Shown here piece by piece: positions 3,247-42,039 of a stretch of 56,516 nt of DNA (position 1 is the stretch's first letter; each line of letters starts with the position of its first letter). The notes under the pieces were generated by a model. It did not search any database. It saw only the letters and a list, made by a program, of their open reading frames with translations, and was not told where the DNA came from. This stretch comes from Sulfurospirillum sp. (GTDB lineage: Bacteria; Campylobacterota; Campylobacteria; Campylobacterales; Sulfurospirillaceae): NCBI GenBank assembly GCA_014859685.1, contig JACUTU010000007.1, forward strand, positions 1 through 56,516. Direction: 5' to 3'. A program made the translations under genes and the position numbers.

Positions 3247-3339
3247 AATTATGCCTCGTATTAATTTAGTTTGCATTATACCATCACTTTTTTATACTTA
3301 GCATAAGATAGTTGATGATACAATCATTTTAAATTTTAA

Positions 3340-3429
3340 CTGATGTTACGCACTAAAACTACAAAAAGGGTACTTTTCGAGAAAATGAGAGGTATTTACG
3401 AACTTTTTTACAAAAGTGCGTAAGGTCAG
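3340..3429 (+). mobile_element. Miniature inverted-repeat element, copy A (90 bp)
   Basis: Begins CTGATGTTACGCACT and ends AGTGCGTAAGGTCAG, which are imperfect inverted repeats of each other. It is flanked by an exact 7-bp direct repeat ATTTTAA (3333-3339 and 3430-3436), the expected mark of transposition. The 90-bp body is nearly identical to copy C. It has no coding capacity and ends 19 nt before the mqnA start codon. Confidence 0.9.
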
Positions 3430-3448
3430 ATTTTAACAATGGACAATC

Positions 3449-4117
3449 ATGATTTTTGGAAAAATAGACTATATCAATTTGTTACCTTTTCACACATTTT
3501 TAAAAAAATCAAATATGCAAAATGCACTCAAAAAAGCGTGCGAATACAGAAAATCATACCCCTCAGCCATCAATGCTCGATTTGAGAAGAGACGCATAGA
3601 CGCGGCCATTATCTCAAGCATACAAAGTGGCAAAAAAGGGATAAGAACACTCGATATGGGAATTGTGGCTAAAAAAAATGTACGAAGTGTTGTAGTAGAA
3701 AAAAATACGCAAAACGCCTCTGATCCACACTCTGCGACATCAAATATGCTTGCAAAAGTATTGCAAATCCATGGTAAAGTACTCATAGGCGATAAAGCAC
3801 TCCAAGCGTATCTCCAAGAACCGGATCATTACATCGATCTTGCACAAATTTGGTATGAAAAGTATCATCTGCCTTTTGTTTTTGCAAGACTTAGTATAAA
3901 TAGATATTTTCATTTTTATAAACGCATTTCAGATAGGTTTAAAAAATATAATATTAAAATACCAAGTTATGTTATAAATCAATACTCTCAAGAGCGGGGC
4001 ATTAAAGTTCAAGATATCAAACAATACTTAGCTTTGATAAGTTATGATATAGGGGCTAGAGAAAAGCGGTCTTTGCAACTTTTTTTCAAAAAAAGCAAGC
4101 AATTTACAAAAAATTAA
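3449..4117 (+). CDS. mqnA: Chorismate dehydratase MqnA (futalosine pathway)
   Basis: Dehydrates chorismate to 3-[(1-carboxyvinyl)oxy]benzoate, the first committed step of the futalosine route to menaquinone. 222 residues with the family signature GKIDYINLLPF at residues 4-14 and a periplasmic-binding-protein-like fold expected throughout. The C-terminal half is more divergent, as in other Campylobacterota MqnA proteins. mqnD, the fourth-step enzyme, lies at 34.3 kb. The promoter region carries mobile element copy A 19 nt upstream, so the leader probably contains or abuts that element. gdhA follows after 17 nt on the same strand. Confidence 0.85.
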   Translation: MIFGKIDYINLLPFHTFLKKSNMQNALKKACEYRKSYPSAINARFEKRRIDAAIISSIQSGKKGIRTLDMGIVAKKNVRSVVVEKNTQNASDPHSATSNMLAKVLQIHGKVLIGDKALQAYLQEPDHYIDLAQIWYEKYHLPFVFARLSINRYFHFYKRISDRFKKYNIKIPSYVINQYSQERGIKVQDIKQYLALISYDIGAREKRSLQLFFKKSKQFTKN

Positions 4118-4134
4118 TACAAAAGGGAAGATAG

Positions 4135-5496
4135 ATGTCGGTAGAAAAATACATTAATAAAATTATGCAAAGCACTATGCAAAGCACTCCAGGGCAAGTT
4201 GAGTTTTATCAAGCAGTTGAAGAAGTTTTAAGTTCATTATTGCCACTCTTACATGCAGAACCAAAATATGATAATTTAAATATTTTAGAACGAATAGTAA
4301 TTCCTGAACGACAGATCATATTTCGCGTGGTTTGGCAAGATGACGCGGGTAGAATTCAAACAAATATAGGCTATCGAGTACAATTCAATTCAGCTATCGG
4401 ACCGTACAAAGGTGGTCTTCGCTTTCACCCATCAGTCAATCTAGGAATTATCAAATTTTTGGGTTTCGAACAAATTTTCAAAAACTCACTTACAGGCTTA
4501 CAAATAGGTGGTGGAAAAGGTGGTTCAAACTTTGATCCAAAAGGTAAAAGTGATGGTGAAATTATGCGATTTTGTCAATCATTTATGACAGAACTCTCAA
4601 AGCACATCGGCGAAACGATAGATATACCAGCGGGCGATATCGGTGTAGGCGGCAGAGAGATCGGTTATCTTTTTGGTCAATATAAACGACTTACAAATAA
4701 TTTTGATGGCGTTCTTACCGGTAAAGGCATCAATTGGGGTGGATCTTTGGCACGAACAGAAGCAACTGGTTTTGGTTCAGTGTATTTTGCGGAAAACATT
4801 CTTGGCAAACAAAATGATAGCGTAAAAGGCAAAATTGCTACAATTTCTGGAAGTGGTAATGTCGCTATTTACACCATTCAAAAACTCATCGAACTCGGAG
4901 CAAAACCTGTTACATGTAGTGATTCAAGAGGGATGATTTATGATAAGAATGGTATCCATTTAGATACACTCAAACTCATAAAAGAGGTCAATCGACAATC
5001 ACTAGAAGAGTATGTGATTATTCATCCGGAAGCTACTTATCTACCTGTACATAAGTATCCAGAAAACACAAATGCAGTTTGGGCCGTACCTTGTGATATA
5101 GCATTTCCAAGTGCTACACAAAATGAACTCAATCTCAATGACATTAAAAATCTTCACAAAAATGGCTGTAAGCTTGTATGTGAAGGAGCAAATATGCCGA
5201 CAACTCCTGAAGCAGTTGCATTTATCCAATCCAATAAAATACTCTACGGTCCTGCAAAAGCAGCCAATGCTGGTGGTGTTGCAACAAGTCAACTTGAGAT
5301 GAGCCAAAATGCTTCGATGGCACGATGGGGATTTTCAGAAGTTGATAATAAATTAAGCAATATTATGAAATCTATTTTTGATCTTTCATACAATACTTCA
5401 AAAGAGTTTGGAGATGAAGGTAATTTGATGATGGGTGCCAATATAGCTGGCTTTAGAAAAGTTGCTGATTCTATGATAGATCAAGGGGCAGTGTAG
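4135..5496 (+). CDS. gdhA: NADP-type glutamate dehydrogenase
   Basis: Forms glutamate from 2-oxoglutarate and ammonia in the cytoplasm. 453 residues, matching the hexameric bacterial class. PYKGGLRFHPSVN (substrate-binding Lys), IGGGKGGSNFDPKG (catalytic Lys region) and the Rossmann segment ISGSGNVA are all intact. The start has AGGGAAG a few nt upstream. It is followed by a strong terminator built on a 26-nt palindrome (5503-5531) that separates it from convergent upp. Confidence 0.95.
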   Translation: MSVEKYINKIMQSTMQSTPGQVEFYQAVEEVLSSLLPLLHAEPKYDNLNILERIVIPERQIIFRVVWQDDAGRIQTNIGYRVQFNSAIGPYKGGLRFHPSVNLGIIKFLGFEQIFKNSLTGLQIGGGKGGSNFDPKGKSDGEIMRFCQSFMTELSKHIGETIDIPAGDIGVGGREIGYLFGQYKRLTNNFDGVLTGKGINWGGSLARTEATGFGSVYFAENILGKQNDSVKGKIATISGSGNVAIYTIQKLIELGAKPVTCSDSRGMIYDKNGIHLDTLKLIKEVNRQSLEEYVIIHPEATYLPVHKYPENTNAVWAVPCDIAFPSATQNELNLNDIKNLHKNGCKLVCEGANMPTTPEAVAFIQSNKILYGPAKAANAGGVATSQLEMSQNASMARWGFSEVDNKLSNIMKSIFDLSYNTSKEFGDEGNLMMGANIAGFRKVADSMIDQGAV

Positions 5497-5502
5497 CAAG
5501 TC

Positions 5503-5531
5503 AAAGAGCCTTACATGTAAGGCTCTTTTTT
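5503..5531 (+). terminator. Terminator hairpin with TTACATGTAA at its centre
   Basis: AAAGAGCC-TTACATGTAA-GGCTCTTT is a perfect 26-nt palindrome followed by a run of six T on the plus strand. It lies between the converging gdhA and upp stops and could act in both directions. The central ten bases are the over-represented palindrome of this window. Confidence 0.85.
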
Positions 5532-5535
5532 ACTT

Positions 5536-6165
5536 TTATGTGTTAAAAACTCTATCTCCAGCATCTCCCAATCCAGGAATGATGTATCCATTTTCATTGA
5601 GTCTATCATCGATACAAGCTGTGTAAACGCGTACATCAGAATGCACGCTCGCAAATTTTTGTAAGCCCTCTGGTGCAGCAACAAGTGATAAAAATCGTAT
5701 ATCTTTGACACCTTTGCTTTTAAGAAAACTTACCGCATCGATTGCTGTACCGCCCGTAGCAAACATCGGATCGATAATGATAGCGGTTCGCTCTTTGTGA
5801 TCATTCGGCAATTTTGCATAGTAAAATTCTGCGGCGAGTGTTTTTTCATTGCGTTGAAAACCCAAAAATCCCACACTCGCATCTGGAATAAGCTTGAAAA
5901 CACTATCAAGCATTCCAAGCGCCGCACGCAAAATCGGACAAATCATAATTTTTGTATTGAGTTTTTTTGTATTTGCCATTGCAATTGGAGTTTGCACCTG
6001 TACATCTCGCAACGGTAAATCCCTTGTTGCTTCAAACAACATCAGATACGAGATCTCATCAACAAGTAAACGAAATTGAAATGGTTCTGTTTTTTCATCG
6101 CGTAAAATCGATAGTTTATGCTGAATAAGTGGATGGTTTATAACCGTTACTAAATCCATATCCAC
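5536..6165 (-). CDS. upp: Uracil phosphoribosyltransferase
   Basis: Pyrimidine salvage enzyme making UMP from uracil and PRPP. 209 residues, the usual length. The PRPP-binding loop (IDPMFATGGTA, about residues 129-139) and the C-terminal uracil-binding segment (GYIIPGLGDAGDR) are complete. It lies 3 nt downstream of adk and presumably shares its transcript. A uracil permease gene (uraA) lies at 49 kb. Confidence 0.95.
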   Translation of the reverse strand: MDMDLVTVINHPLIQHKLSILRDEKTEPFQFRLLVDEISYLMLFEATRDLPLRDVQVQTPIAMANTKKLNTKIMICPILRAALGMLDSVFKLIPDASVGFLGFQRNEKTLAAEFYYAKLPNDHKERTAIIIDPMFATGGTAIDAVSFLKSKGVKDIRFLSLVAAPEGLQKFASVHSDVRVYTACIDDRLNENGYIIPGLGDAGDRVFNT

Positions 6166-6168
6166 TTC

Positions 6169-6810
6169 CTATGCCAAAAGTGCAAACATATCAGATGTTA
6201 CTGCGGCAACATCTTTTGTGCCATCAAGCGTAGATAAAATACCTTTGTCACTATAAAAATCTAGCAAAGGTGCAGTTTGAGCATGGTACGCCTCAAGGCG
6301 GCTTTTGACGGTTTGAGCATTGTCATCTTTTCGCACAATAAGTTCCCCGTCACAATAATCACAAACTCCCTCTACTTTCTCGGGATTGAACTCTACATGA
6401 AAAGAAGCACCACATTTTACACAAACTCTACGACCACTTATGCGTCCTACGATCAGCTCATCTGGAACATTGAGAGATATAACTTTATCAAGTTTGATAC
6501 CCATTTTTTCCATCAAAAAATCAAGTGCTTGTGCTTGTGCTAGAGTTCGTGGAAAACCATCAAGGATGAATCCCTCTTTGCAATCACTTTGTGCAAGTCT
6601 ATCTTGAATTATACCGATGATAGTGCTATCTGGCACTAATTTTCCCGCATCCATATACTCTTTTGCTTCCATGCCCATAGCTGTTTTATTTACAATTGCG
6701 GCTCTAAGTATATCACCTGTTGCAATTTGTGGTATGTTGTATCTTTCGATAAGATATTTTGCCTGAGTTCCCTTGCCAGCACCTGGCGCTCCAAATAACA
6801 TAAGATTCAT
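6169..6810 (-). CDS. adk: Adenylate kinase with zinc-type lid
   Basis: Interconverts ATP plus AMP with 2 ADP. 213 residues. The P-loop GAPGAGKGT is at residues 7-15, the NMP-binding site follows (IATGDILR), and the lid carries four cysteines (Cys130, Cys133, Cys150, Cys153) spaced to bind zinc, as in the Gram-positive-type long adenylate kinases. The ATG has AAGGAG about 9 nt upstream. First gene of adk-upp. Confidence 0.95.
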   Translation of the reverse strand: MNLMLFGAPGAGKGTQAKYLIERYNIPQIATGDILRAAIVNKTAMGMEAKEYMDAGKLVPDSTIIGIIQDRLAQSDCKEGFILDGFPRTLAQAQALDFLMEKMGIKLDKVISLNVPDELIVGRISGRRVCVKCGASFHVEFNPEKVEGVCDYCDGELIVRKDDNAQTVKSRLEAYHAQTAPLLDFYSDKGILSTLDGTKDVAAVTSDMFALLA

Positions 6811-6885
6811 AAGATTTGACTCCTTAAAATTGTTACAAGTAATATACTAAAATTGAGATTAAGGAGAGTTGAGAATTGTAATCTC

Positions 6886-6958
6886 AGGCATCTTATTTTT
6901 TTAAGATCTGATGTTACGCACTTTTTTGCAAAAGTGCATAAGGTCAATTAAGATGCCT
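6886..6958. terminator. Terminator hairpin interrupted by a mobile element
   Basis: The arms AGGCATCTTA (6886-6895) and TAAGATGCCT (6949-6958) are perfect inverted repeats now separated by mobile element copy B and one extra TTAAGAT. Taking out the element and one duplicate restores a 10-bp stem with a 6-T loop, sited just after the malic enzyme stop (minus strand). Confidence 0.75.
6908..6947 (+). mobile_element. Miniature inverted-repeat element, copy B (40 bp, minimal form)
   Basis: Essentially only the two terminal inverted repeats: CTGATGTTACGCACT joined to the right end ending AAGGTCAA. It is flanked by an exact 7-bp duplication TTAAGAT (6901-6907 and 6948-6954). It matches copy D at the variable right-end bases, as if derived from a D-like copy by deletion between ACT repeats. 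It can fold into one long hairpin. Confidence 0.88.
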
Positions 6959-6968
6959 AAGTGTTTCG

Positions 6969-8246
6969 TTATCGTGCTTCAGCGTCAATAACGGCTTGTA
7001 ATTTTGCCTTATAAGCTTCAATGTCAAAATCACTGATTTTAGCAACACCATCCTCGATGGCAGCTTGAGCCACAGCAGCGCTCACCCATACAAGCACCCT
7101 TCTATCAAAAGGTTTTGGGATGATATAGTTGATACCAAATTTGAAGTCTTCATTAGGATACGCGGCTTTTACATACGCAGGTGCTTCTTCTTTTGCAAGT
7201 TTTGCCATCGCCACAGCAGCAGCCATTTTCATACCCTCAGTTATCTTTGTAGCTCGTACATCAAGTGCGCCACGGAAGATAAATGGAAAACCTAGAACAT
7301 TGTTCACTTGATTTGGATAGTCACTTCTTCCTGTTCCCATCATCACATCATTGCGTGCTGCAAATACTTCTTCTGGCAGGATTTCAGGAGTTGGATTTGC
7401 AAGAGCGAAGATGATTGGATATGGATTCATACTTTTTACCATCTCTTGCGTAACAACACCTGGTGCAGAAAGTCCTAAAAACATATCAGCTCCCTTCATA
7501 GCATCGGCAAGTGTTCTATCATCTGTATCGAATGCAAAATGGGCTTTGTATTTGTTGAGATCATCTCTCTTGGAATGGATAACACCTTTGCTATCGAGCA
7601 TCACAATATGTTTTGCGCCCAAAAGTTGATACATTTTTGCACAAGCAGTGCCAGCAGCACCAGCACCTGAAACAACGATTTTCATCTCTTCGATTTTTTT
7701 ACCGCTTATCTCAAGGGCATTGATAAGTCCAGCGCTTGTAATCATCGCAGTACCGTGTTGGTCATCGTGCATAACGGGGATATCAACGCAAGCTTGAAGT
7801 TTTTCTTCAATCTCAAAGCATTGTGGAGCTTTGATATCTTCTAGGTTAATACCACCAAAAGTTGGACTCATCGCTTTACAAATTGCGACTATTTTATCTG
7901 GATCATGTTCATCAAGCTCAATATCAAAAGCATCTACATCTGCAAATTTTTTAAAAAGTACAGATTTTCCCTCCATAACAGGCTTGCCAGAAACAGCACC
8001 TATATTGCCAAGTCCAAGCACTGCCGTTCCATCACTGATAACAGCCACAAGGTTACCTTTGTTTGTGTATTTGTAAGCAAGTTCTGGATCTTTTTGGATC
8101 TCCAAACATGGATGTGCAACCCCTGGGGTATATGCTTTTGAAAGATCCCTTGCACTATCACAAGGTGTTTTTACACTGATACCTATTTTTCCACCTAGAT
8201 GATATTCTAGTGCTTCGGATTTTGTTACTTTATCTTTTTCGCTCAC
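6969..8246 (-). CDS. maeB: NAD(P)-dependent malic enzyme
   Basis: Oxidative decarboxylation of malate to pyruvate. 425 residues, the short form without the phosphotransacetylase domain found in enterobacterial MaeB. The N-terminal malic domain ([18 protein letters not shown]) is followed by a Rossmann domain ([14 protein letters not shown]) and [10 protein letters not shown]. It starts with GTG at 8246 overlapping the gltX stop as GTGA, with AAGGAG upstream, so it is translationally coupled to gltX. C. jejuni has the same gltX/malic enzyme/upp neighbourhood. Confidence 0.93.
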
Positions 8247-9634: not shown

Positions 9635-9813
9635 AAATTCACCTTTTAATTATTTTATTGTTTTTTTATGTCAAAACTATGTATCAAGAAAATTTTCGTA
9701 GCAAAAGAACACATTTCAGCAAACTTTAAATGCGATTTACTCAAAATAATGCTATGATTTCTTACATAAACGAGATCAATTATATACTATTTTACCTAAC
9801 AAAGGATTTATCT

Positions 9814-10656: not shown

Positions 10657-10660
10657 GTTT

Positions 10661-10689
10661 TGAGCAAATAGGAAGCACCCATTTGCTCG
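10661..10689. terminator. Inverted repeat between convergent genes
   Basis: GAGCAAAT (10662-10669) and ATTTGCTC (10681-10688) form an 8-bp perfect stem with an 11-nt loop between the surA-like stop and the accC stop. No T run follows on either strand, so terminator activity is inferred from position only. Confidence 0.45.
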
Positions 10690-10699
10690 GAGATTTGCA

Positions 10700-13568: not shown

Positions 13569-13571
13569 GTG

Positions 13572-14327: not shown

Positions 14328-14347
14328 GATAAACTCCTTAGTATTCA

Positions 14348-14437
14348 CTGATGTTACGCACTAAAGCTACGAAAAGGATACTTTTCGAGAAAATTAGAGG
14401 TATTTACGAACTTTTTTACAAAAGTGCGTAAGGTCAG
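14348..14437 (+). mobile_element. Miniature inverted-repeat element, copy C (90 bp)
   Basis: Same length as copy A and nearly identical to it. It is flanked by GTATTCA (14341-14347) and TTATTCA (14438-14444), a 7-bp duplication with one change. It lies between the promoter at 14453-14481 and the FlaC-like start at 14327, so it should be transcribed as part of that gene's leader. Confidence 0.88.
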
Positions 14438-14452
14438 TTATTCATTAAAATT

Positions 14453-16463: not shown

Positions 16464-19400
16464 ATGAAAAAATATCGTTGCAATTATTGTGAAAATCAAT
16501 TTGATTCTTTTACTCCCTACAGAATCAGTAGTGAAACACCGAATGTCTTTTCAGAAATAGTAGGGAGCAATATCGAACAGTTTGGCTGCCCTGTTTGTGG
16601 CGCACATGATAGAGAACGGCATCTCAAACTTTATTTTGAAGCGTTAAAACTCTTTGAAAAAATTCCCAACGCGCGTATTCTGCATTTCGCGCCCGAACAT
16701 CATTTTACACAATATATTGCTTCATTTAAACCTGAATTACATATCAAAGCGGATTTATCTCCCTCATCTCCAACCGTTATATCCTTAAACATCGAGACTA
16801 TCCCTTATGACGACAACTCCTTTGATATTGTTATAGCCAATCATATTTTAGAACATGTTTCAAATATCGATGCTGCTTTGTCAGAAATCAATCGTGTTTT
16901 AAGGCCAGATGGGGTTGCTATATTGCAAACGCCATATAGCACTGTACAAGAAACAACGCTAGAAGATCCTACAATCAATACCGATGCACTTCGTTTGCAA
17001 TACTATGGACAAGAAGATCATGTGCGGCTTTTTGGTAGAAATATCTTTGAATATTTTTCACGATTTTTAGAGAATAGCGCTCACTTACATGTAAACCTTT
17101 TTAAGGATGTGGATACTTCGAAATTCGGAATCAATCCGCAAGAACCTCTCTTTTTATTTCGCCATAAAAAAAGTGAAAAAGATGTTAAAGTGCCTGAACG
17201 AACACGAAGCGAACAGGAGATTCTATCGTCATGGACTCAGAAAACTCCGCTTGTCAGTATTGCCTGTATTACCTATAATCACGAACATTATATTGCTCAA
17301 ACGATTGAAAGTTTTTTGATGCAAGAGACGGAATTTCCTTTCGAAATCATCATAGGGGAAGATTGTAGCACAGACAATACTCGCACCATTGTTGAATCGT
17401 ATCGCTTACACTATCCCAAGCTCATTCGCGTTTTATACCCTGAGTCTAATGGCGGTTTTCAGCACAATTTAGTACAAACATTTCAAAACTGTCAAGGAGA
17501 TTTTATCGCGCTGTGTGAAGGTGATGATTATTGGACTGATCCCAAAAAACTCCAAAAGCAAGTAGATTATCTCCAAAATAATCCCGATTGCGTTATCACT
17601 TACGGAGCTGTTCAGGCATTTGATGAAAATGGCATTGTTTATAATTATGTTGGGGGCGCTACTTTTGATCTCACACGAGAGCAACTGCAAAACTGTCATC
17701 CAATCAATACACTAACCACTTGTTTTCGCAATATATTAGGAAAATTGCCACCAGAATATTTCGTAACAGGGTATGGCGATCTCTTTTTATGGTCACTTTT
17801 AGGACATTTTGGAACCGGAAAATACATCAACTCCATTTTACCTTCTCGCTACCGAATACATGCTGGCGGCGTTCACTCATCGCAATCATCGCAAACCAAG
17901 CATGCCATGCTGGTAGAAACTTATTTTGCTTTATATTTGTATTATAAAAGGATTGGTTCCCTAACACTCAGTGAAGATTGTTATAAAAATGCCGCGATGA
18001 TAATTCATCAAATACACAACAGTGTAACATATGAAAATGGTTCCGAATTATTTGAGAGCTCTTTAGAAAAGATCAAAAAAAGATGTACAAACAATTATGC
18101 GTTTAATATACAAGAGTATGAAGCTTTGCTTGATCGTCATACTCTAAAAACTTTTTTAGGCAACCATACTTCGATCAAAGCAAAAAAAGTTGTCGCTTAT
18201 CTCGCTGATCCTTTTGACACCGACAATTACCTTGACTTGACTCTCAATATTTTTAGTTCTATCGGTAACTTAAAAGATTACTGCGTAGAACCGTTACTCC
18301 AAAAAAGTAATGGACGCTACCACCTCAAAATGGATTTATTAGCAACCTTACATGTAGTCATCATCTATGACAAAGCGGCCTATTTCTCACATCTTATCCC
18401 TCAAATCAAAGCATGCGGGATTCCTGTACTTTTCTATGTGCATACCGATGTTTGGAATGTTGATGTGAAACATAGAGCAAAAGAAGCACTGGATTTATTA
18501 CAACCTCATTATCGCGCGTGTATTGAGCTTTGTGATAAAGTGGTAACATCCAATGAGTATTTAAATCAAAACATTGGCAAAGAAAGCGATGTTATCACCC
18601 CTCTCATCGACATCTCACCATGGAATGAATCCAATAAAAAGCCACCTCGATTGAGCGATAAATTTACCGTTGCGGTTTATGTGAGTATGGATAATCTCAA
18701 TGATATTTCTATGATTGCAAAATTTATTCAAACCATTCAAAAAAAATATAATGATGAGCTTTATTTTGTAGTGTATGCCATCAATACTCCATCAAATGAA
18801 CTCGAAGCATTGAGCTTTACTGATGTTAAACTAACAAAAATTGATAATTATCTTCAATACATCAACTTTATCCGTTCTCAGCCAATCGATGCAGTCCTCA
18901 CGCCCCTCATCGCCAATACACACAATCTCACCATCTCGCCTTTGAATTATTTCATTCAATCGCTTTGTGGCATACCTGGACTTTACAGCAATTGGGGGCT
19001 TTATAAAGAGGTGATACAACACGGGGTTACAGGATTTTTATGTAATGAAAATGAACTCGATTGGGAGGCTGCACTTGTTACACTGATGCGCCATCCAGAC
19101 ACCAAAGAAGAGATAGCCAAAGCTGCAAAAAAACAGGTCTTGGAAAATTTTACAACTGACCATATTTTGCGTCAAATCTATGATTTATTGGAGCATTTTG
19201 AAGCACCCAAGTCTCCAAGAATCATTCCAGATGCCCTCAATATATCTTTTACGCGATACGAATTACTCTCTTTTTTAAGTTATCCGGCATGGTGCGATAT
19301 AAAAGCATTGCGACCAAGCGACATACCTGTTTGGGATTCTTTAGCACAAAGTTGGAAATCGTTGCCTGAGTTTCATTTTTTTGTGCAAGCAGATGAAACA

Positions 19401-21941
19401 AATTTAGCCAATTTAGCTGACACAGTTGAGAGTTTTGTGGCGCAACTCTATCCGCAGTGGAACCTTTATATCATTGCATCAATTGCTTCACCAAATCCTC
19501 TTTTTGATGAGCACAATAAAATTCACTGGATCCAAATGGAAGGTTCGCTTTACAGTGCTATCAATTATGTCTGTATGCAATTAAACAAAGGTATGATCGG
19601 TTTTGTTGTAGCAGGGGATAGATTGCAACCCCATGCACTCACCGCATACACGGAAACTTTTAATTGCTCAGAAACGCATCTCATCTACTCTGATCATGAC
19701 AATTTGGATGCATCCAAAAATCGGATCTATCCACAATTTAAACCAGACTTCAATCTTGATATGTTCAGGTCAAAAAATTATATCTCTCGAAGTTTTGTTA
19801 TCTCCGCAATTGCGCTCAAAGAGTTAGGTGGATTACAACTAGAATTGAGCGATAGCGAGTTGTTTGATTTGATTTTGCGTTATTGTGATTTTTTTGGAGA
19901 ACATACTATTGCTCATTATAGTGATATTTTACATTCATTGATTAGAGAAAATAAACACATCGATTTACATTTACTTTCCTCTAAAATAGCTTTAAAACAC
20001 CATTTAAATCGAAATGGACTGGTTGCGGATGTTATTGATGAAAAGGAAGAGAGTTTTCGCATTCTCTATCACCACGAATCAACTCCACTAGTAAGCATTA
20101 TTATTCCAACTAAAAATCAAGTTCATTTTTTACGCCCGTGTATTGAAACATTTTTAGAAAAAACAGCTTATAAAAATTATGAAATTATTATTGTCGATAA
20201 TCACTCTGATGAAGCAAGTGCCATTGAGTATCTCGCGTCGTTACAAAAGTATGAAAATATTCATGTCATCGCTTACAACAAGCCTTTCAACTATTCAGAG
20301 GCCAATAACATTGGAGCTCAGTATGCAAAAGGAGAATTTTTACTCCTTCTAAACAACGATACCGAGATACTCCATGAAAACTGGCTCGATGTTCTCCTTT
20401 CTTATGGACAACGCAATGACATCGGTATTGTTGGGCCACGGCTCATCTACCCAAATCAAACCATTCAGCACGCAGGGGTAATTGTAGGACTCAGTAATTG
20501 TGCCGATCATCAATTTACAGGATCTGACCTCTACGATCCTGGTTACATGTCACGCCTCCAAATCGATCAAAATCTCTCCGCAGTTACTGCCGCCGTTATG
20601 CTCATTAAACGCTCTATTTTTGATGCAGTATCTGGCTTAGATGACACGCATTACCATGTCAATTTTAGTGATGTTGATTTTTGTCTCAAAGTAGTGAAAG
20701 CGGGGTATAAAATACTCTTCACTCCACATGCTACTCTATTGCATCATGGCTCAGTAACACAAAAAAATATTGATGTGAAAAAGGTGGAAGAGAAGAAAAA
20801 ACGCTTTTTAGAAGATAAAAATTCATTAATAAGCAGATGGGGCGAGATGATCATACACGACCCGGCATACAATGTCAACTTAGATACTGCTGACTCTTCG
20901 ATGTCTATCCAAACCAGAGCATTAGCACATTGGAATCCGCTTTTAAAATCACCGATTCCAAAAATTTTAGGAATGGCAAGAGGTAAAGATGGTGGTGGAT
21001 TTTATCGCATAACTTCTCCTTTAGATGCTCTTGAAGCATCTAATTTGGCACAAACTCACTATGAATATAAAAGTTATATACCAATCTATATGATGATACA
21101 ACAGCCTGAAATTATTGTCTATCAAACACCACTTCATGATGGGATGATCATTTTCTTGGAAGCAATCAAAACAATTTTCCCGAATGTTACCCTTATTTTT
21201 GAGATCGATGATCTTCTCACCAATATTCCTATCGATAATCGTGCCTTTCATAATCAATATAAAGATACTCACAAACGGATACTCAAAGCGATGAAATATT
21301 GTGATCGAATGGTTGTCTCAACGCAACCGCTCAAAGATGCCTTTCAAAAATATAGTGAAGATATTCGCATCATCCCCAACTATTTACCAAAAGCTATTTG
21401 GGGAGATCTGCATTCACAACGCAATCGTTCAGAAAAATTACGAGTCGGATGGGCGGGAAGTATTTTTCACAAAGGCGATCTGGCCTTAATCTCCAAACTC
21501 GTTGAAAAATATCAAGATGTTGTCGAATGGGTATTTTTTGGTATGGCCCCAGAAGGGCTTGAGGGTAAAATCGAATTTCACGAGGGCGTATCTTTGGATC
21601 TCTACCCAAAAAAATTGGCTAGCTTAGATTTAGATCTCGCACTTGTGCCTCTTGAAGATAACCAATTTAATGCAGCTAAAAGCAATTTACGCCTCTTAGA
21701 GTTTGGGATACTTGGTTGGCCTGTAATCTGTAGTGATGTTTATCCTTATCAAGAAGGGCCTGTGACGCGAGTCAAAAACAGATATAAAGACTGGGAAAAA
21801 GCTTTTTTGACTAAGATTTCTGATCTAGAGACTCTTCAAAAAGAGGGAGATAGGCTTAAAAAATGGGTTAAAGAAAATTATATGCTTGAAGATCATGTTG
21901 ATTTTATTTTTCACCAATATACACAAGCGAAAGATATATAA
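16464..21941 (+). CDS. Giant multidomain methyltransferase/glycosyltransferase (1825 aa)
   Basis: A single 1825-residue protein with five catalytic-type modules. Residues 1-240: Zn-ribbon cysteines (Cys6/9, Cys42/45) and a SAM methyltransferase (HILEHV motif near 128). 255-480: GT2 glycosyltransferase (PLVSIACITYN, EDCSTDN, CEGDDYW). 570-915: GT4/GT-B-like domain. 960-1190: degenerate GT2-like module with YSDHDNLD. 1200-1450: second intact GT2 (VSIIIPTKNQ, LLNNDTEI, SDVDF). 1480-1825: GT-B-type C-terminal domain (RVGWAGS). No signal peptide or membrane segment is seen, so it should act in the cytoplasm. Next to sugar-modifying genes and convergent with flagellin, it probably assembles a flagellin or surface glycan in one polypeptide. 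The acceptor is unknown. Confidence 0.85.
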   Translation: MKKYRCNYCENQFDSFTPYRISSETPNVFSEIVGSNIEQFGCPVCGAHDRERHLKLYFEALKLFEKIPNARILHFAPEHHFTQYIASFKPELHIKADLSPSSPTVISLNIETIPYDDNSFDIVIANHILEHVSNIDAALSEINRVLRPDGVAILQTPYSTVQETTLEDPTINTDALRLQYYGQEDHVRLFGRNIFEYFSRFLENSAHLHVNLFKDVDTSKFGINPQEPLFLFRHKKSEKDVKVPERTRSEQEILSSWTQKTPLVSIACITYNHEHYIAQTIESFLMQETEFPFEIIIGEDCSTDNTRTIVESYRLHYPKLIRVLYPESNGGFQHNLVQTFQNCQGDFIALCEGDDYWTDPKKLQKQVDYLQNNPDCVITYGAVQAFDENGIVYNYVGGATFDLTREQLQNCHPINTLTTCFRNILGKLPPEYFVTGYGDLFLWSLLGHFGTGKYINSILPSRYRIHAGGVHSSQSSQTKHAMLVETYFALYLYYKRIGSLTLSEDCYKNAAMIIHQIHNSVTYENGSELFESSLEKIKKRCTNNYAFNIQEYEALLDRHTLKTFLGNHTSIKAKKVVAYLADPFDTDNYLDLTLNIFSSIGNLKDYCVEPLLQKSNGRYHLKMDLLATLHVVIIYDKAAYFSHLIPQIKACGIPVLFYVHTDVWNVDVKHRAKEALDLLQPHYRACIELCDKVVTSNEYLNQNIGKESDVITPLIDISPWNESNKKPPRLSDKFTVAVYVSMDNLNDISMIAKFIQTIQKKYNDELYFVVYAINTPSNELEALSFTDVKLTKIDNYLQYINFIRSQPIDAVLTPLIANTHNLTISPLNYFIQSLCGIPGLYSNWGLYKEVIQHGVTGFLCNENELDWEAALVTLMRHPDTKEEIAKAAKKQVLENFTTDHILRQIYDLLEHFEAPKSPRIIPDALNISFTRYELLSFLSYPAWCDIKALRPSDIPVWDSLAQSWKSLPEFHFFVQADETNLANLADTVESFVAQLYPQWNLYIIASIASPNPLFDEHNKIHWIQMEGSLYSAINYVCMQLNKGMIGFVVAGDRLQPHALTAYTETFNCSETHLIYSDHDNLDASKNRIYPQFKPDFNLDMFRSKNYISRSFVISAIALKELGGLQLELSDSELFDLILRYCDFFGEHTIAHYSDILHSLIRENKHIDLHLLSSKIALKHHLNRNGLVADVIDEKEESFRILYHHESTPLVSIIIPTKNQVHFLRPCIETFLEKTAYKNYEIIIVDNHSDEASAIEYLASLQKYENIHVIAYNKPFNYSEANNIGAQYAKGEFLLLLNNDTEILHENWLDVLLSYGQRNDIGIVGPRLIYPNQTIQHAGVIVGLSNCADHQFTGSDLYDPGYMSRLQIDQNLSAVTAAVMLIKRSIFDAVSGLDDTHYHVNFSDVDFCLKVVKAGYKILFTPHATLLHHGSVTQKNIDVKKVEEKKKRFLEDKNSLISRWGEMIIHDPAYNVNLDTADSSMSIQTRALAHWNPLLKSPIPKILGMARGKDGGGFYRITSPLDALEASNLAQTHYEYKSYIPIYMMIQQPEIIVYQTPLHDGMIIFLEAIKTIFPNVTLIFEIDDLLTNIPIDNRAFHNQYKDTHKRILKAMKYCDRMVVSTQPLKDAFQKYSEDIRIIPNYLPKAIWGDLHSQRNRSEKLRVGWAGSIFHKGDLALISKLVEKYQDVVEWVFFGMAPEGLEGKIEFHEGVSLDLYPKKLASLDLDLALVPLEDNQFNAAKSNLRLLEFGILGWPVICSDVYPYQEGPVTRVKNRYKDWEKAFLTKISDLETLQKEGDRLKKWVKENYMLEDHVDFIFHQYTQAKDI

Positions 21942-22000: not shown

Positions 22001-23443
22001 TTATTGTAGAAGTCTTAAAACATTTTGTTGAACCGCATTTGCTTGACTCATTGCATAACTTCCTGATTGCGCAAGAATGTTATATTTGGAGAAGTTTGCT
22101 GATTCTGCTGCAAAGTCAACATCACGGATCTGTGATTCTGCCGCCTTTACATTTACTTGAGTAACTGAGATATTGTTTATGGTTGAAATCATTTGATTTT
22201 GAGTAGAACCGATATCCCCACGAATAGTATCAAGGCGTTTGATTGCTGATTCTGCAATTGTCATCATCGCTTGAGCACCTTCGTAAGTATTGACACCCGC
22301 TGCCAATGTTTCACCATATCCAACTTGTCCACTAGCAAATGCACCCATCGCTTTAACTTCACCAGAAGCAAATCCATCCAATGTTGAACGAAGATTGATA
22401 GTTGCTTCTACAGTTGTTCCGCCCATACCTGATGCCTTAATATCAGCACCATTTGTATTTGTAAGTGTAAGATTGCCGGTAGTTAAACCAGTTGCGACAC
22501 TGTCTAGCGTACCTGAAACATCTATAGCACGGCCACTTGTTGAACTCAAAACAAGATTACCACGACTATCCACACTTGCGCTTACGCCAGTACTTTCCTT
22601 AACCGCATTAATCGCCGCAACAAGTTTACCATCGCTATCATTAGCTTTGATATCAGTTACATTAATGCTAACACCATTGATACCAAAACTTGCGGTCGCT
22701 GCTGCAGCAACTGCAGCCGTACCAACCGTACTCACATTGTAGCTTGCTTTTACACCGAGTAAATCACTGTTTTTGTTAATTGTTTCTGCTAAAACGCCAA
22801 CACCTTCTTCTGCACCACTTCCAATGATAACTGATTCAAGTGAAACTGTTTTTGTAGCATCTGACGCTGTACCAGTAAATGTTAGTGTTACCGCACCAGC
22901 TGCAATTCCTTCAGTTGTTTCAAAGCGTGATTGACCAATTTTATCTGTACTAGTAGCGCCAATACTTGCTGAAATTGTCTGATTTGTGTATGCACCTACT
23001 TGGAATTGTGCATTCGTAAACTGTCCTGAAAGCAATGATTTTCCATTAAATGATGTAGTAGAGGCAATATTGTCCAAAGACCCCATCAAACGAGTAATAT
23101 CCGCTTGAAGTGCTTTACGAGAATCGGCGCTTTGACCATCTTGCGCAGCTTGTGTTGCTTTGACTTTAATTGTATCTAAAATTTTAAGTTGCTCATCCAT
23201 CGCTTTATCAGCGATTTGAAGCATACTAACACCATCATTTGCATTTGCAATTGCTTGACCTAATGTACTTGCTTGTGAACGCAATGAATCTGCAATTGCC
23301 AATCCAGACGCATCATCAGCTGCTGTGTTGATACGCAAACCTGAAGATAGCTTTGCCAAAGAGCCATCTAAACTTCTGTTGTTAACATTTGCTGCTGTAT
23401 GAGCATTCATCGCTGCAATGTTTGTATTAATTCTGAAACCCAT
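22001..23443 (-). CDS. flaA: Flagellin
   Basis: Filament subunit exported by the flagellar type III system. 480 residues with conserved N-terminal D0/D1 ([41 protein letters not shown]), a variable Ala/Thr/Ser-rich centre (about 190-390), and conserved C-terminal D1/D0 ending NVLRLLQ. The variable centre is the usual site of O-glycosylation in Campylobacterota. The ATG at 23443 has AAGGA 8 nt upstream and gives the canonical MGFRINTN start; an in-frame extension to 23509 is rejected. A sigma-28-type promoter is at 23499-23525. Confidence 0.95.
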
Positions 23444-23496
23444 GATAAATCCTTTTATCTTTTGTATTTCGCGGGCATCCTTGCCTTTGATAAAAA

Positions 23497-23829
23497 CTAA
23501 ATCGTACATGTGAAAAAAAAGTTTAGAGGGTTTGGAGAAAAATTTACATTCTTGACAATAAAAACTTGATTATTATCGCTGATATTAGCTATGTTAGTGA
23601 GGATTTGCAAGAAGAGATGCATCGAAATAGCAAGTGCTTCAAGCTCACATTCAAGATCACGGAAGAGCTGACCAAAAGTTTGTGGTTCATGCTTGATTCG
23701 ATTGATGTAACTAAGCAGGTTGTAGGTGAACATTGAGAGCGTTATGCGAGCAATAAGAGCCTCGTAGAGGCGATTCTCTTCGCGTCCTAGCCCAAAGTAT
23801 TCCCGTAAATCTTTGTAGTTTCTGGCCTG
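23497..23829 (-). pseudogene. C-terminal remnant of a DDE transposase
   Basis: About 110 in-frame codons after an in-frame stop near 23835, with no start. The segment LREYFGLGREENRLYEALIA followed by FTYNLLSYINRI and EPQTFGQLFRDLE resembles the C-terminal part of IS4-like DDE transposases. The frame runs into the flagellin promoter region, and its last residues are non-homologous. It fills most of the gap between flagellin and the Uma2-like gene; the remainder (about 23830-23906) is AT-rich and shows nothing else. The exact IS family is uncertain. Confidence 0.6.
23499..23525 (-). promoter_or_regulatory. Sigma-28-type flagellar promoter
   Basis: On the minus strand TAAA (23525-23522) is followed after 17 nt by CGATTT (23504-23499), close to the flagellar sigma-28 pattern TAAA-N15-GCCGATAA (17 nt from TAAA to CGAT). 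It lies 56 nt upstream of the flagellin start and is the expected class 3 control for flaA. Confidence 0.65.
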
Positions 23830-37244: not shown

Positions 37245-37250
37245 AGTACT

Positions 37251-38570
37251 TTACTTTTGGATGAATTCGACAAGAATCATTCCTAAAAATTTATCTTCAT
37301 GCTTCGTGTCGTAAAATTCGATGCGAAATCGCTTGGCATCTTTGTCGATAGAAAACTGTGGCAAGATCTGTTTTTTATGGATATTTAATCCTGATTCATT
37401 GGGGTATTTGGTATTAACATATCCTATAACATTGACCCTTACATGTGGGTCTTCTTGCACGCGAAAATAATCCCGCACCTCAACAAGACTTCCCAAATGC
37501 ACACTTTGGATTTTGCCATCGATAAACATCTCCACCGCACCATCAAATTTTCCATAATCAAAATACTGCGGCACAAGTGTTGTAAGTTTTTTATTGCCAT
37601 AGTACACAACAAAACTATTTTTTTCCTCTATCACTGTCATCACGGGTGAGCTTGGCGAAAATGTAATCGCATCTCCCTTTTTTACAGGAAAATAACTAAT
37701 CTGTGGTCGAATTCGAGAAAGTGGTATAAAAATCTTTTTATCATTGAAAGAGATAAATATGTCATTATCAATCACATCTTTGAGTATTTGGGCCTGTAAA
37801 TCAAATTTTCTTTTGTACTCTATACCCATGATATCCATAAATTTCTCAAGTGCCAAAAGTTTATAATACACTCGCTCATGCACAGGCAAGGATTTGCTTG
37901 ATTCATTGCCAAATGCGGCTTTGCCGGAATTGATAGCAAAATAGGTCAGCGTCTTTGCCATCTCTTTTTCTTCAAATGTTTGTTTTTCATAAGTATGGGT
38001 GTTTTTTGTGTGAAACATATGTTCAGGGCTCAAAAGTTGCTTATTTATATGTGCATCAACCTCTTGAGCGATCGCTTCGAGATCTCCATAACGCACATCC
38101 TCTACTTTTGCTTGATCGATGATCGTAGCTTGTCCCCAACGCCTTGGCTGGTGCATAGCGTCTATATATTTTTCTCTATAAAATCCACTGCCATCGTGCA
38201 GGTTTACTACCATCTGCACACTCGCATCGCTGATGAGTTTTTTCATCCGTTCTATGCTGCGATAATCAGGGTCATCTTTGGAAAGTTTGTCAAATTTACG
38301 GTTAAGATCTCCAAAAGGTCCACGATTGCTTTTGATAATCGAATAAAAGTTAAAATTTGGCACGACCCAAATCGAACCTTTGGTGATCTCATAATGCGTA
38401 GCGAGCAATGACGCTGCCATAAAACTACCTGGTTCATCACCTTGGATACCGCCAACTACAAGCAATTTGTTCGTACTGTTCACATCACCTTTTTGGATAA
38501 GTGCAAAGTCCATATTTTGCGCGTAACTACCAGTTATAAACAATAAAAAAATACTAAATAATCTTAACAT
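37251..38570 (-). CDS. Peptidoglycan DL-carboxypeptidase Csd4/Pgp1 type (cell shape)
   Basis: Periplasmic M14-like enzyme that trims peptidoglycan tripeptides to dipeptides and is needed for helical shape in Helicobacter and Campylobacter. 439 residues from the ATG at 38570, which starts a signal peptide. The unusual zinc ligands Gln-Glu-His are at Gln43, Glu46 (GGIQGDEPG) and His125 (VNLHDGSG), with the same spacing as H. pylori Csd4 (46/49/128). It overlaps the M15 peptidase gene by 17 nt. A curved or helical cell shape is inferred. Confidence 0.88.
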   Translation of the reverse strand: MLRLFSIFLLFITGSYAQNMDFALIQKGDVNSTNKLLVVGGIQGDEPGSFMAASLLATHYEITKGSIWVVPNFNFYSIIKSNRGPFGDLNRKFDKLSKDDPDYRSIERMKKLISDASVQMVVNLHDGSGFYREKYIDAMHQPRRWGQATIIDQAKVEDVRYGDLEAIAQEVDAHINKQLLSPEHMFHTKNTHTYEKQTFEEKEMAKTLTYFAINSGKAAFGNESSKSLPVHERVYYKLLALEKFMDIMGIEYKRKFDLQAQILKDVIDNDIFISFNDKKIFIPLSRIRPQISYFPVKKGDAITFSPSSPVMTVIEEKNSFVVYYGNKKLTTLVPQYFDYGKFDGAVEMFIDGKIQSVHLGSLVEVRDYFRVQEDPHVRVNVIGYVNTKYPNESGLNIHKKQILPQFSIDKDAKRFRIEFYDTKHEDKFLGMILVEFIQK

Positions 38571-39297
38571 GCCACGGCTCAAATCGTACTCCATCTTCGT
38601 TATTTATCGTATAACGCATCTGGATATACGAAAGTTGTCTGAGTCTCCAAAACTCCTTGGTTGCTGCAAAAGAAACAGTAAAATTTTTATGTCCCCATCC
38701 TTTTTTGCCCACATCAAAATCTCCGATACTATGGTAAGAATACGCGGGAGGTGCGATACTATGCACAGCTTGTGTGATATTGCCGCCCGTACTTTTTATC
38801 TTGTTAAAATACAGGTTCATCTGCTTTGCAACACTTCTAATGCCCGAAGTTAGTTCAAGTGAGTTGCCTACATCTGTGATGACTCGCTCATAAGAGCGAT
38901 AAGAAATGCCACCAAAAAGATACTGTCCGCTTGCATCAAGCTTGATAGTTTCTTTTATGTTGATAACATCTGTAAGATTTGCAACAGTTTTAGCTCCAAA
39001 AAAGCCGTATTTTTGAGGATCTTCATAAAATCGCTCTTCCATAAATGCAAGCTCACGAGCATCAAACGCACCAATTTTTCTATATCTTTTGGCGGTTTGT
39101 AGCATAGCATCAAAAGAGAGGATATTGAAATTGCCATGACCGACGGCTCTTTTTACAAGCTCTATCTTTTGCACAACACTGAGAAATACAGCTGTTTGAT
39201 CGTCTTTGATCCACAAAGCATTGTCTTGTTGTTGTGTATTTGCCACAGCATTGATTGCGCCGCACAGTGACAATCCTAAAAATGCTCTTCTTTGCAT
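38554..39297 (-). CDS. M15 (VanY-type) peptidoglycan carboxypeptidase
   Basis: 247 residues. The zinc-site pattern of D-Ala-D-Ala carboxypeptidases is visible as SYHSIGDFDVG (His189, Asp195) and EPWHV (Glu240, His243); the first His-to-Asp spacing is one residue shorter than in VanY. The N-terminus MQRRAFLGLS followed by a hydrophobic run looks like a Tat or Sec signal. Coupled by overlap to the csd4-like gene, so both probably edit the same muropeptides. Confidence 0.8.
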   Translation of the reverse strand: MQRRAFLGLSLCGAINAVANTQQQDNALWIKDDQTAVFLSVVQKIELVKRAVGHGNFNILSFDAMLQTAKRYRKIGAFDARELAFMEERFYEDPQKYGFFGAKTVANLTDVINIKETIKLDASGQYLFGGISYRSYERVITDVGNSLELTSGIRSVAKQMNLYFNKIKSTGGNITQAVHSIAPPAYSYHSIGDFDVGKKGWGHKNFTVSFAATKEFWRLRQLSYIQMRYTINNEDGVRFEPWHVKII

Positions 39298-39346
39298 AGA
39301 GAACCTTTGTGAAAATTAGTCGAGATTATACCACAAATGTGGATTT

Positions 39347-41818
39347 TTAAGGTATTTGCACAAGCATCTGCAAAGCCGCTTGTGCCTCAAGTGGTTTGCC
39401 AAAAAGATAGCCTTGCATTTGTGTGCAACCATTTTGTATGAAGAAGTCTCTTTGCTCAGTAGTCTCAATTCCCTCAGCCAAAGACTTTAAAAACAAGCCA
39501 TTTGCAAGTGCAATAATTGTTTTTGCGATGGCTCTATCCTCATGGTTTTGGATAATATCTTTAACAAACGCTCTATCGATCTTAAGTTTTGTGATAGGCA
39601 ATACTCGCAAATAGGAAAGCGAGGAGTAGCCTGTACCAAAATCATCTATAGAAACACCGATGTTCAGTTCTCGAAATCGTTGCAATAAAGCGATAGATTT
39701 TTGTGGATTTTTCATCACAAACCGCTCCACAACCTCGATACCTATCCACTCTGGCTTACATCCTGTTTGTGCAAATAACTCTACTATGCGTTCAAACAAA
39801 CCTTCTTGTTCTAATTGCTTACCAGCAAAGTTGATAGATATTCTGCCGGGATTTAATCCAAGAGAATACCAATACGCAACCTGTCGCATCGCTTCTTTAT
39901 TGACCCAATCTCCAATCTCTATGATCAAATCGCTCTCTTCTGCAACCATGATAAACTCATTTGGTTCTACTATCCCTCTTTGCGGATGATTCCAGCGGAT
40001 CAACGCTTCAAAGCCCTCTACATGTAGACTCTTGGAATTAACTATCGGCTGGTAGTAAAGTAAAAACTCTTCATTTGCTAAAGCTTCTTTGAGTTCTTTT
40101 TCAAGTTGTTGTTGTGCTTGTGCTGCTGTATCCATTTCGGGTATAAAAAATTTGTAATTATTTCTGCCCTCTTCTTTGGCTTTAAACATAGCAGTATCAG
40201 CTTTTTGCATCAACATTTCGCCACTTTCCCCATCTTGAGGATACACGCTGACACCCATGCTGAGCTTTACGCTTTGTTTGAGTGTTTCTAAGGACAAAGG
40301 TTCTTCAAAATATTCTTTGATTTTTGCAAGAACGGTGGTAATATCTGCAAGATCAAAGCATCTATCAATCACAATGATAAATTCATCCCCACTCAGTCTC
40401 GCAGCAATATCTGTTTCTCGGATAGCATTTTTGAGTTTTGTGGCAATTTTTTGTAGCAGCATATCGCCGACTTTATGGCCGTGCGTATCATTGATCATTT
40501 TAAATTTATCAACATCTACAAACACTACCGCAACTTGGTACTTTTCCCTTTTTGCTCTTTTGAGTAGTTGCGCAAGTCGTTCGCTTAGAAGTCCTCTATT
40601 TGGTAAATTTGTCAAGATATCGTGATTGGCTTGATAGCGTAAAAGCTTCTTTTGCTCTTTTGTTTTATTGTGTCGCAGGAGAAGCTTTTTTTGATAAAAA
40701 TCAAAGATATTTTTCAATCTTTTTGAAATGAAAAACATCACAAAAAACACAAGCAGTGCAACAGAAAAGAAAACTATTGACATGTTGTAAAGTGATTTGT
40801 TGCGTTTTGTTTTAATCTCTTGTGCTTGGTGCGCTATCACTTCTTTTACTTTAGATCCGTAAGTATCAACACCAACAACCCAATCAAAACTCTGTATGTA
40901 ACGCACAAATGAGGAGTTAAAAGCGAGTGCTGATCCTGTATCAAACTGCATCGAAGTAGTATGGGAGATAAAAAATCCATCTGGCATTATTTGAGAACCT
41001 CGGATTATTTGTGAAACCTGTGAAGCACTTTTTTGCACTTGTTCTGCATCTTTTTGTGTTGCCATAAGCTTACCAGAGCCATCATAGGCAAAAATACCGC
41101 CATCCTCAAGATGGGACATATTTTCAAGATATATTTTGGCACTTTTTTTGATGCTAGCGATAATATCTTCTTCATATCGCGCCGTACCAACCAATATCTC
41201 AAGTGGTTTATACGCTGCAATATAGCCAATCTTTTTTCTCATCATTGCATCAGAGGGTTTAAACCAGTACCAATCATAAAAATCTGCATTTTTTTCTTTA
41301 GCAATTTTGATAAAATCTTGGACAATGAAAGCACCTTGACTATCTTTTATGTGCAGCATATTTGCACCCTCAAATGCAACTTGAGTAGGCAAAAGTACAT
41401 TTGTGCCATCAAAGTCATAAACAAAGAAGTATCCGCTAAAGTTTTCAAAAAAACGAATCCCTCGCAAGCGTTCTTTTATCTTTGCAAGAACTATCTCTCG
41501 TGGCAAATCTATGTTATCTTGATGTACTTGCGTGATGATGTTGAGAGCAAGGTTAGTGATATTTTTAACCTCAAGCTGTGCTTCTTGGCGTAAAATTTTT
41601 TCACTTTCTCTGAGGTAATCAGCCATATGATCAACCCGCTCTTGTGCTTGTATTTTTGTTTTTTTCAGATAATCTCTTTGCAAATTTTCTATCTGCTGGG
41701 TGTAGCTATCTTGCTCAAGTTTTATAAACATAACCATGATTAGCGTCGTAGTGAGTGCGACAGCTAAAAGTGGCAATGCAACAATCCAACGAATAATTTT
41801 ATCTTTATTGATGTGCAA
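39347..41818 (-). CDS. Cache-sensor GGDEF/EAL cyclic-di-GMP protein
   Basis: Membrane-bound c-di-GMP turnover protein of 823 residues. A TM helix near the start, a periplasmic double Cache-like region (about 30-340, including FFENFSGYFFVYDFDGTNVL), a second TM (about 345-365), a GGDEF domain reading SGDEF (a functional variant in some cyclases), and an EAL domain with intact FEALIRW, DDFGTGYSSL and ETTEQ segments. Start chosen at TTG 41818, 6 nt after GGGGA; TTG at 41836 is the alternative. Element copy D lies upstream. It may be bifunctional; net activity unknown. Confidence 0.85.
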   Translation of the reverse strand: MHINKDKIIRWIVALPLLAVALTTTLIMVMFIKLEQDSYTQQIENLQRDYLKKTKIQAQERVDHMADYLRESEKILRQEAQLEVKNITNLALNIITQVHQDNIDLPREIVLAKIKERLRGIRFFENFSGYFFVYDFDGTNVLLPTQVAFEGANMLHIKDSQGAFIVQDFIKIAKEKNADFYDWYWFKPSDAMMRKKIGYIAAYKPLEILVGTARYEEDIIASIKKSAKIYLENMSHLEDGGIFAYDGSGKLMATQKDAEQVQKSASQVSQIIRGSQIMPDGFFISHTTSMQFDTGSALAFNSSFVRYIQSFDWVVGVDTYGSKVKEVIAHQAQEIKTKRNKSLYNMSIVFFSVALLVFFVMFFISKRLKNIFDFYQKKLLLRHNKTKEQKKLLRYQANHDILTNLPNRGLLSERLAQLLKRAKREKYQVAVVFVDVDKFKMINDTHGHKVGDMLLQKIATKLKNAIRETDIAARLSGDEFIIVIDRCFDLADITTVLAKIKEYFEEPLSLETLKQSVKLSMGVSVYPQDGESGEMLMQKADTAMFKAKEEGRNNYKFFIPEMDTAAQAQQQLEKELKEALANEEFLLYYQPIVNSKSLHVEGFEALIRWNHPQRGIVEPNEFIMVAEESDLIIEIGDWVNKEAMRQVAYWYSLGLNPGRISINFAGKQLEQEGLFERIVELFAQTGCKPEWIGIEVVERFVMKNPQKSIALLQRFRELNIGVSIDDFGTGYSSLSYLRVLPITKLKIDRAFVKDIIQNHEDRAIAKTIIALANGLFLKSLAEGIETTEQRDFFIQNGCTQMQGYLFGKPLEAQAALQMLVQIP

Positions 41819-41854
41819 CAAAAATCCCCCAAACAATTCTAATGATTTTATTTT

Positions 41855-41996
41855 CTGATGTTACGCACTAAAACGAACTCGTCCGTTTTAGTAGCAGGGG
41901 CAAATGTCCCTACAACCCCATAAAGCTACGAAAAGGGTTCTTTTCGAGAAAATGAGAGGTATTTACGAACTTTTTTGCAAAAGTGCATAAGGTCAG
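41855..41996 (+). mobile_element. Miniature inverted-repeat element, copy D (142 bp, longest form)
   Basis: Same ends as the other copies (CTGATGTTACGCACT ... AAGGTCAG) with 52 extra bases after ACTAAA. The extra part contains a CTAAAACG/CGTTTTAG inverted repeat and an AGGG/CCCT one, and is bounded by TAAA repeats. Flanks are TTATTTT (41848-41854) and TTATTCT (41997-42003), 6 of 7 identical. It separates the divergent GGDEF/EAL and nucleosidase genes, so it probably sits in both leaders. Confidence 0.88.
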
Positions 41997-42039
41997 TTAT
42001 TCTAGCAAAAAATAGATGAGACTTGCTATAATTGTATCT

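Follow-up and report, generated by a model that had tools for sequence, protein, structure and literature searches.

Four short elements in the window

The stretch of DNA analyzed here (hereafter, the window) comprises 56,516 nucleotides of Sulfurospirillum sp. contig JACUTU010000007.1 (GenBank assembly GCA_014859685.1), and it contains four short intergenic elements, A through D, which a sequence-only reading had proposed to be copies of a miniature inverted-repeat transposable element (MITE). All four elements, ends included, were recovered, with lengths of 90, 40, 90, and 142 bp. We conclude that they belong to a MITE family with at least 82 copies in this genome and that they were very probably moved in trans by a transposase of the ISAba11-like IS701_2 group (NCBIfam NF049921, Pfam DDE_5), from the subgroup of insertion sequences (ISs) with CTGA-NN-TTACGCA ends.

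Element A (3340..3429, + strand), a 90-bp copy of an internal-deletion class that was delimited by end matches and the family model described below, lies between two exact copies of ATTTTAA (3333..3339 and 3430..3436). Element B (6908..6947, + strand; sequence read and family model) is, at 40 bp, barely more than two joined ends, and it lies between exact copies of TTAAGAT (6901..6907 and 6948..6954). Element C (14348..14437, + strand), a 90-bp copy placed by the family model and by flank distances, is flanked by GTATTCA on the left (14341..14347) and TTATTCA on the right (14438..14444), which agree at 6 of 7 positions. The same level of agreement is seen between the left (TTATTTT, 41848..41854) and right (TTATTCT, 41997..42003) repeats of element D (41855..41996, + strand; model and tree), a 142-bp copy that is the top family-model match in its own genome and also one of the 16 rows used to build that model. 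All eight repeats were read directly from the + strand, and they are the 7-bp flanks that the sequence-only reading had listed.

The left and right ends of the elements, CTGATGTTACGCACT and CTGACCTTACGCACTT, are imperfect inverted repeats of each other, agreeing at 13 of 15 positions in A and C, 12 in D, and 11 in B. Positions 5-6 are TG in the left end and CC in the right end, such that each element combines one TG-type with one CC-type end. The window contains four exact copies of the left end; allowing three mismatches raises the number of matches to eight, compared with a mean of 1.00 in shuffled windows, and the same kind of scan with the right end gave 10 matches, compared with 1.65. The elements are non-coding, as had been claimed: no open reading frame (ORF) of at least 90 aa lies inside A through D, and one mechanically called ORF touches the first base of C. 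Copies of the family measure 40 to 161 bp, well within the range of short, non-coding MITEs (less than approximately 500 bp).

Copies, target duplications, and an empty site

The genome to which the window belongs consists of 2,096,005 bases in 23 contigs and is rated 100% complete. Searching it with the element ends recovered a large family; the left end matched 52 times with at most one mismatch, compared with zero matches of the reversed control pattern, and the right end matched 80 times with at most three mismatches, compared with six control matches. The shared orientation noted for the four window copies is correct but is not a property of the family, as the left ends genome-wide are 28 forward and 24 reverse. 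A covariance model built from 16 copies identified at least 82 copies at E ≤ 1e-3, the 16 building rows included; this count is a lower bound because 150 of the 3120 model candidates were scored. The copies fall into size classes of approximately 160, 142, 90, and 40 bp, the shorter of which resemble internal deletions of the longer.

For the analysis of flanking sequences, we used 34 copies with at most two mismatches in both ends, which came from 50 fetched loci rather than from all 82 copies. Insertions avoid genes: any overlap with an ORF is limited to 15 bp in 32 of these 34 copies, the other two overlap an ORF end, and none lies inside an ORF. The neighboring genes reveal no strand preference and no positional bias of the copies relative to genes.

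Exact 7-bp repeats flank 14 of the 34 copies, 23 agree at 6 or 7 of 7 positions, and exact repeats of 8 bp or longer are absent. In 20,000 shuffled pairings of the same copies, the mean number of exact 7-mers was 0.56 and the maximum was 5, with none reaching 14. Mean flank identity at register 7 is 0.79, compared with 0.49 in mismatched pairs, and it is near the control at registers 5, 6, 8, and 9. Among 43 copies from other genomes, 14 have exact repeats at 7 bp and one at 8 bp (shuffle mean 0.88, maximum 6). The exact repeats are 89% A+T in the own genome and 95% in other genomes, whereas the bases just outside are 75-76% A+T. The proposal of an A/T-rich 7-bp target duplication, which would have been in doubt had the flanks matched no better than chance, is borne out by flanks that match far above chance and by a duplication of constant length.

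A looser count found a right end no more than 450 bp away for 38 of the 52 left ends; 15 of these pairs have flanks identical at 7 of 7 positions, eight at 6, seven at 5, and eight at 3 or fewer, although the 38 include at least one far pair that is doubtful, as well as two symmetric or overlapping elements that were counted once per strand. The mismatched-pair control for this count yielded 12 exact matches of 1406. Right-truncated copies with possible target repeats (L013, L006, and L037) were considered as evidence of another mechanism and rejected, as their repeats are equally explicable as diverged internal sequence. Near the match at 1501 on the minus strand of L013, a copy ends within the core and has TTACTTA on both sides, which may be the target repeat of a truncated copy or diverged core sequence. 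Separately, the TAACTGA repeats of marine Beggiatoaceae, which are reported to be of unknown function (PMC4679880), resemble the junction of target (TAA) and element end (CTGA), and a link is possible.

Two other genomes of the genus, one of which (G042) is 81% complete, contain no match to the left end. At site C, two conserved flanking words are 126 bp apart in the window and 29 bp apart in both congeners; the lengths agree exactly because the element plus one 7-mer amounts to 97 bp, and 126 - 97 = 29. Site C is therefore a clean, uninterrupted site in both congeners, and it is the sole clean one among the four. Sequence divergence precludes an empty-site comparison at A, B, and D: the conserved flanks of site A are separated by more than 1 kb of other sequence in the congeners; around site B, the congeners yield no clean alignment of the intergenic stretch; and for site D, G042 is shorter by 118 bp between the conserved parts, compared with 149 bp expected. 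Relatives carrying copies at the same sites, with no empty sites, would have spoken against mobility; at site C, both congeners are empty. With short, non-coding, multicopy elements, inverted ends, 7-bp duplications, and an empty site, the identification of A through D as a MITE stands.

The family extends beyond this genome. Including the own genome, the left end has a match in 12 of 44 genomes of the taxonomic family, the other 11 having at most two each, and at the level of the order the family model matches 47 of 298 genomes (15 of 81 genera) at E ≤ 1e-5 when up to ten candidates were scored in each genome. Named genomes, scanned for exact matches to 18 bases, yielded at least 108 stretches; the matches listed are mostly from Sulfurimonas, Sulfuricurvum, and other Campylobacterota, but also from Thiotrichales, Thioploca, Thiomargarita, Saprospiraceae, and others. 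Single 18-base matches (e.g., in Chloroflexi or Pseudoalteromonas) are no proof of a copy because we estimate that approximately seven matches are expected by chance. End pairs with exact 7-bp repeats occur in Campylobacterota, in one metagenome-assembled genome (MAG) of Thiotrichales, and in one of Saprospiraceae, and the cores of the elements in these two MAGs differ, by eye, from the window core; elements with such ends are thus also present in other Campylobacterota, Thiotrichales, and Bacteroidota. In a comparison using 36 of 107 aligned rows, element D is closest (96% identity) to a copy from a Sulfurimonas MAG, and in the tree most of the own 142-bp copies are interspersed with three Sulfurimonas copies of this kind. 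A plasmid search with element D returned one match, to a Sulfuricurvum plasmid, with 42% query coverage.

Candidate partner insertion sequences and rival explanations

The sequence-only reading had found no transposase with such ends in the window, and we found none in the window or in the whole assembly. Four widely spaced end pairs were examined as possible autonomous ISs and rejected: those 787 and 1069 bp apart (L013 and L029) are separate MITE copies or pieces around ordinary genes (by eye, one for ribonuclease HII and one for an HtpX-like protease), and those 1631 and 2172 bp apart (L110 and L095) also enclose ordinary genes.

Outside the own genome, the search for a full-length IS with these ends led to ISAba11-like members of the IS701_2 group. 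The model NF049921, which has a cut-off of 250 bits, corresponds to "group ISAba11" in the Cyanobacterium sp. HL-69 record. We examined 17 loci with transposases of this group, identified by model or tblastn, for end pairs; 11 were from a search that returned 116 records (60 listed), three and two were from two other searches, and one was L151. This last locus, in a Flammeovirgaceae MAG, has an end pair 1164 bp apart that encloses a frame-broken transposase, the pieces of which match Pfam DDE_5 and DDE_Tnp_1 and have IS701_2 as their best NCBIfam match, below the cut-off. At 14 of the 17 loci, there is an end pair 1.0-1.25 kb apart with at most three mismatches per end from CTGATGTTACGCA. Seven of these 14 ISs lie between exact, A/T-rich 7-bp repeats (shuffle mean 0.63, maximum 5, with 0 of 20,000 shuffles reaching 7), namely those of Polaromonas CJ2, Polaromonas H6N, Piscirickettsia salmonis (two plasmids of one strain), Moraxella osloensis (two), and Acinetobacter schindleri. 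Complete ISs of the subgroup are approximately 1.1 kb long, and in all six examined the transposase stop codon TAA lies within the right end (GCGTAA). Five transposases, four from these loci and that of ISAba11, score 339-394 bits against NF049921, all above the cut-off. The MITE family therefore has its ends in common with ISs that pass the cut-off, and its duplication length is that of the seven ISs with exact repeats; an autonomous element with such ends is present outside the own genome only, and there both ends are of one type.

The IS on plasmid pPNAP01 of Polaromonas naphthalenivorans CJ2 (transposase WP_011798057.1) illustrates the resemblance, as it has CTGATGTTACGCA ends and an exact 7-bp repeat, TATTTAA, that is A/T-rich like those of the MITE; its right end contains the stop codon of the transposase. 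However, it is 1102 bp long with a 352-codon transposase, and both of its ends are TG-type, whereas the MITE has TG in the left end and CC in the right end. Nearer relatives provide CC-type sequence. In G007, from the same family as the window genome, the C-terminus of a transposase at a contig edge (partial, 80 bits) ends in LKSA followed by the stop codon, and over 18 bases its DNA is identical to the right end of A and C, with CC at the variable positions. A complete IS701_2 IS (329 bits) is present in G218, from the same order; its ends are CC-type, and its flanks agree at 4 of 7 positions. This genome also carries a MITE that has the core of the window copies and is flanked by an exact 7-bp repeat. 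ISAba11 of Acinetobacter, with 394 bits to NF049921, a length of approximately 1.1 kb, and TTACGCA inside its ends, shares these features with the subgroup; however, its outer end bases are TAGGAC rather than CTGATG, and because both ends and target length differ (based on one ISAba11 copy), the subgroup is distinct from its namesake.

Several observations weigh against the assignment to IS701_2. The own genome assembly contains no NF049921 transposase above the cut-off; its sole match, to the relic of another kind of DDE IS, scores 18 bits. Multi-copy ISs are often lost at contig ends, and because the assembly is in 23 contigs, absence of the transposase is likely rather than proven; an autonomous copy in the same genome is not a required feature of a MITE. 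Only 3 of the 44 family genomes match NF049921 at E ≤ 1e-20, with none passing the cut-off, and G007 has no left-end match beside its partial, 80-bit piece. Among the ISs, the other 7 of 14 end-paired loci agree at 2 to 5 of 7 flanking positions and have no exact 7-bp repeat (the ordinal relatives G218 and G047 each at 4 of 7, Stanieria at 3 of 7), and three P. salmonis loci of the 17 lack such an end pair. In the single ISAba11 copy inspected, the ends are TAGGACTTACGCA and the target repeat is 5 bp long. The ISs share only their ends with the MITE, nothing like its core having been seen in them, and none of the 14 has one TG-type and one CC-type end.

The relic in the own genome raises an alternative partner, as it belongs to a sister DDE group, NF049925 (IS4_4-type), whose ends, CT(G/C)A-NC-TTTCGCACC, are similar in motif to those of the MITE. 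The relic ORF (C23:6799-7209, L159) scores 114 bits to NF049925 and retains one end, CTGAACTTTCGCACC; in addition, G014 contains a 1527-bp IS with NF049925-kind ends that lies, by eye, between A/T-rich 6-7 bp repeats at six of seven end-paired loci. That the MITEs derive from this group is nevertheless improbable, as their ends read TTACGCA, as in the IS701_2 subgroup, and not TTTCGCACC or the CT(G/C)ANCTTTCGCACC of the sister group. The 18-base identity of the MITE right end is to the 3' end of an IS701_2 gene, the relic has only 18 bits to NF049921, and four of six G014 repeats are 6 bp rather than 7 bp long. The G014 IS itself, a member of the sister group of the MITE's likely partner, is represented by eight matches (L165, L167-L173), with ends CTCATCTTTCGCACC and CTGAGCTTTCGCACC in seven paired loci.

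Two further explanations concern the elements rather than the transposase. A structured-RNA or extragenic-palindrome family with a regulatory role, spread other than by transposition, would account for the location of copies between genes and for RNA folding better than shuffles (z-scores of -3.9 to -6.1 for six sequences in the element's own orientation). We consider this scarcely credible: strong folding is no evidence of RNA function because it is expected from inverted ends, the window has no Rfam match at gathering thresholds, the copies favor neither strand nor any position with respect to genes, and the exact 7-bp repeats at 14 of 34 copies, together with the empty site in the congeners, call for insertion. 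Compatible with movement by an IS701_2 transposase, and relevant to the size classes only, is the idea that the 90- and 40-bp copies are remnants of longer inserted copies that were shortened by deletion where they stood, and that the short forms never moved. The deletion junctions coincide, by eye, with short repeats (ACT, CTAAA) close to the bases of stems, positions at which slippage is expected, and there are only four 40-bp copies (L002, L005, L031, and L041). However, one junction is common to eight 90-bp copies (L001, L003, L009, L015, L023, L035, L040, and L045) and another to three 40-bp copies at different sites (L002, L031, and L041), which fits copying of a deleted form, and the fourth 40-bp copy, L005, is of a different make, consisting of two left ends facing each other. 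On balance, in-place deletion appears rather unlikely.

Proposed mechanism and further observations

The MITE family is real and apparently orphaned. Based on its ends and duplication length, an IS701_2-type transposase would be the agent of its movement, presumably by cut-and-paste chemistry. Such a transposase would recognize ends of approximately 15 bp and insert the element at an A/T-rich site by a 7-base staggered cut, which the host would fill in to leave 7-bp direct repeats; internal deletions would then give rise to the classes of approximately 160, 142, 90, and 40 bp. The autonomous copy was probably lost from the own genome or was only a visitor to it. The 40-bp copies suggest that little beyond the two ends is needed and that the core is dispensable, unless these copies arose by in-place deletion. 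More tentatively, and as a rather unlikely reading, the IS subgroup whose right end doubles as a stop codon may repeatedly spawn MITEs in unrelated phyla, with units of approximately 40 bp being moved by a transiently entering transposase; the mixed TG/CC ends would then come from two IS lineages joined together.

Bacterial MITEs vary strongly in size, including lengths of about 40 bp, according to a review (PMC10969869). QMITE1 of Coxiella (39-400 bp), as described there, is likewise short and non-coding, with inverted ends and direct repeats (PMC10969869). The hupL MITE of Candidatus Thiomargarita nelsonii is also a high-copy element of a sulfur bacterium with an uncertain partner, but its description, with 10-bp direct repeats and a 19-bp inverted repeat, sets it apart (PMC4853749). 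MITEs as such are known; as far as we searched, this family is new, with no description of it among the papers searched, which were for the most part the best-ranked ones (in several cases the best 10 or 20 of many), and no occurrence of the 12-base end TGATGTTACGCA in the searched papers. The analysis links a high-copy intergenic repeat of environmental Campylobacterota to a specific, probable transposase group and sets apart a subgroup by its ends and 7-bp target repeat. With 82 copies and no transposase found, the family offers a simple test case for trans-mobilization and for the minimal substrate of a DDE transposase.

The window also contains an iterated palindrome, TACATGTA, with 33 occurrences (e.g., 1080-1087, 2448-2455, and 42600-42607), compared with 1.0 in shuffles, and it is in 29-fold excess over a trinucleotide model. 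It resembles HIP1, the highly iterated palindrome of cyanobacteria, and the motif was absent from the best-ranked 10 of 199 papers on the subject. In the whole genome, there are 446 occurrences of TTACATGTAA and one of the reversed control. The count is as high as 1,496 in one member of the family, whereas it is only 6-97 in the ten genomes of genus g2.

A single 1825-aa ORF (16464-21941) looks, by eye, like fused methyltransferase and glycosyltransferase domains. Next after it, on the opposite strand, is a gene that by eye is flagellin-like (22001-23509).

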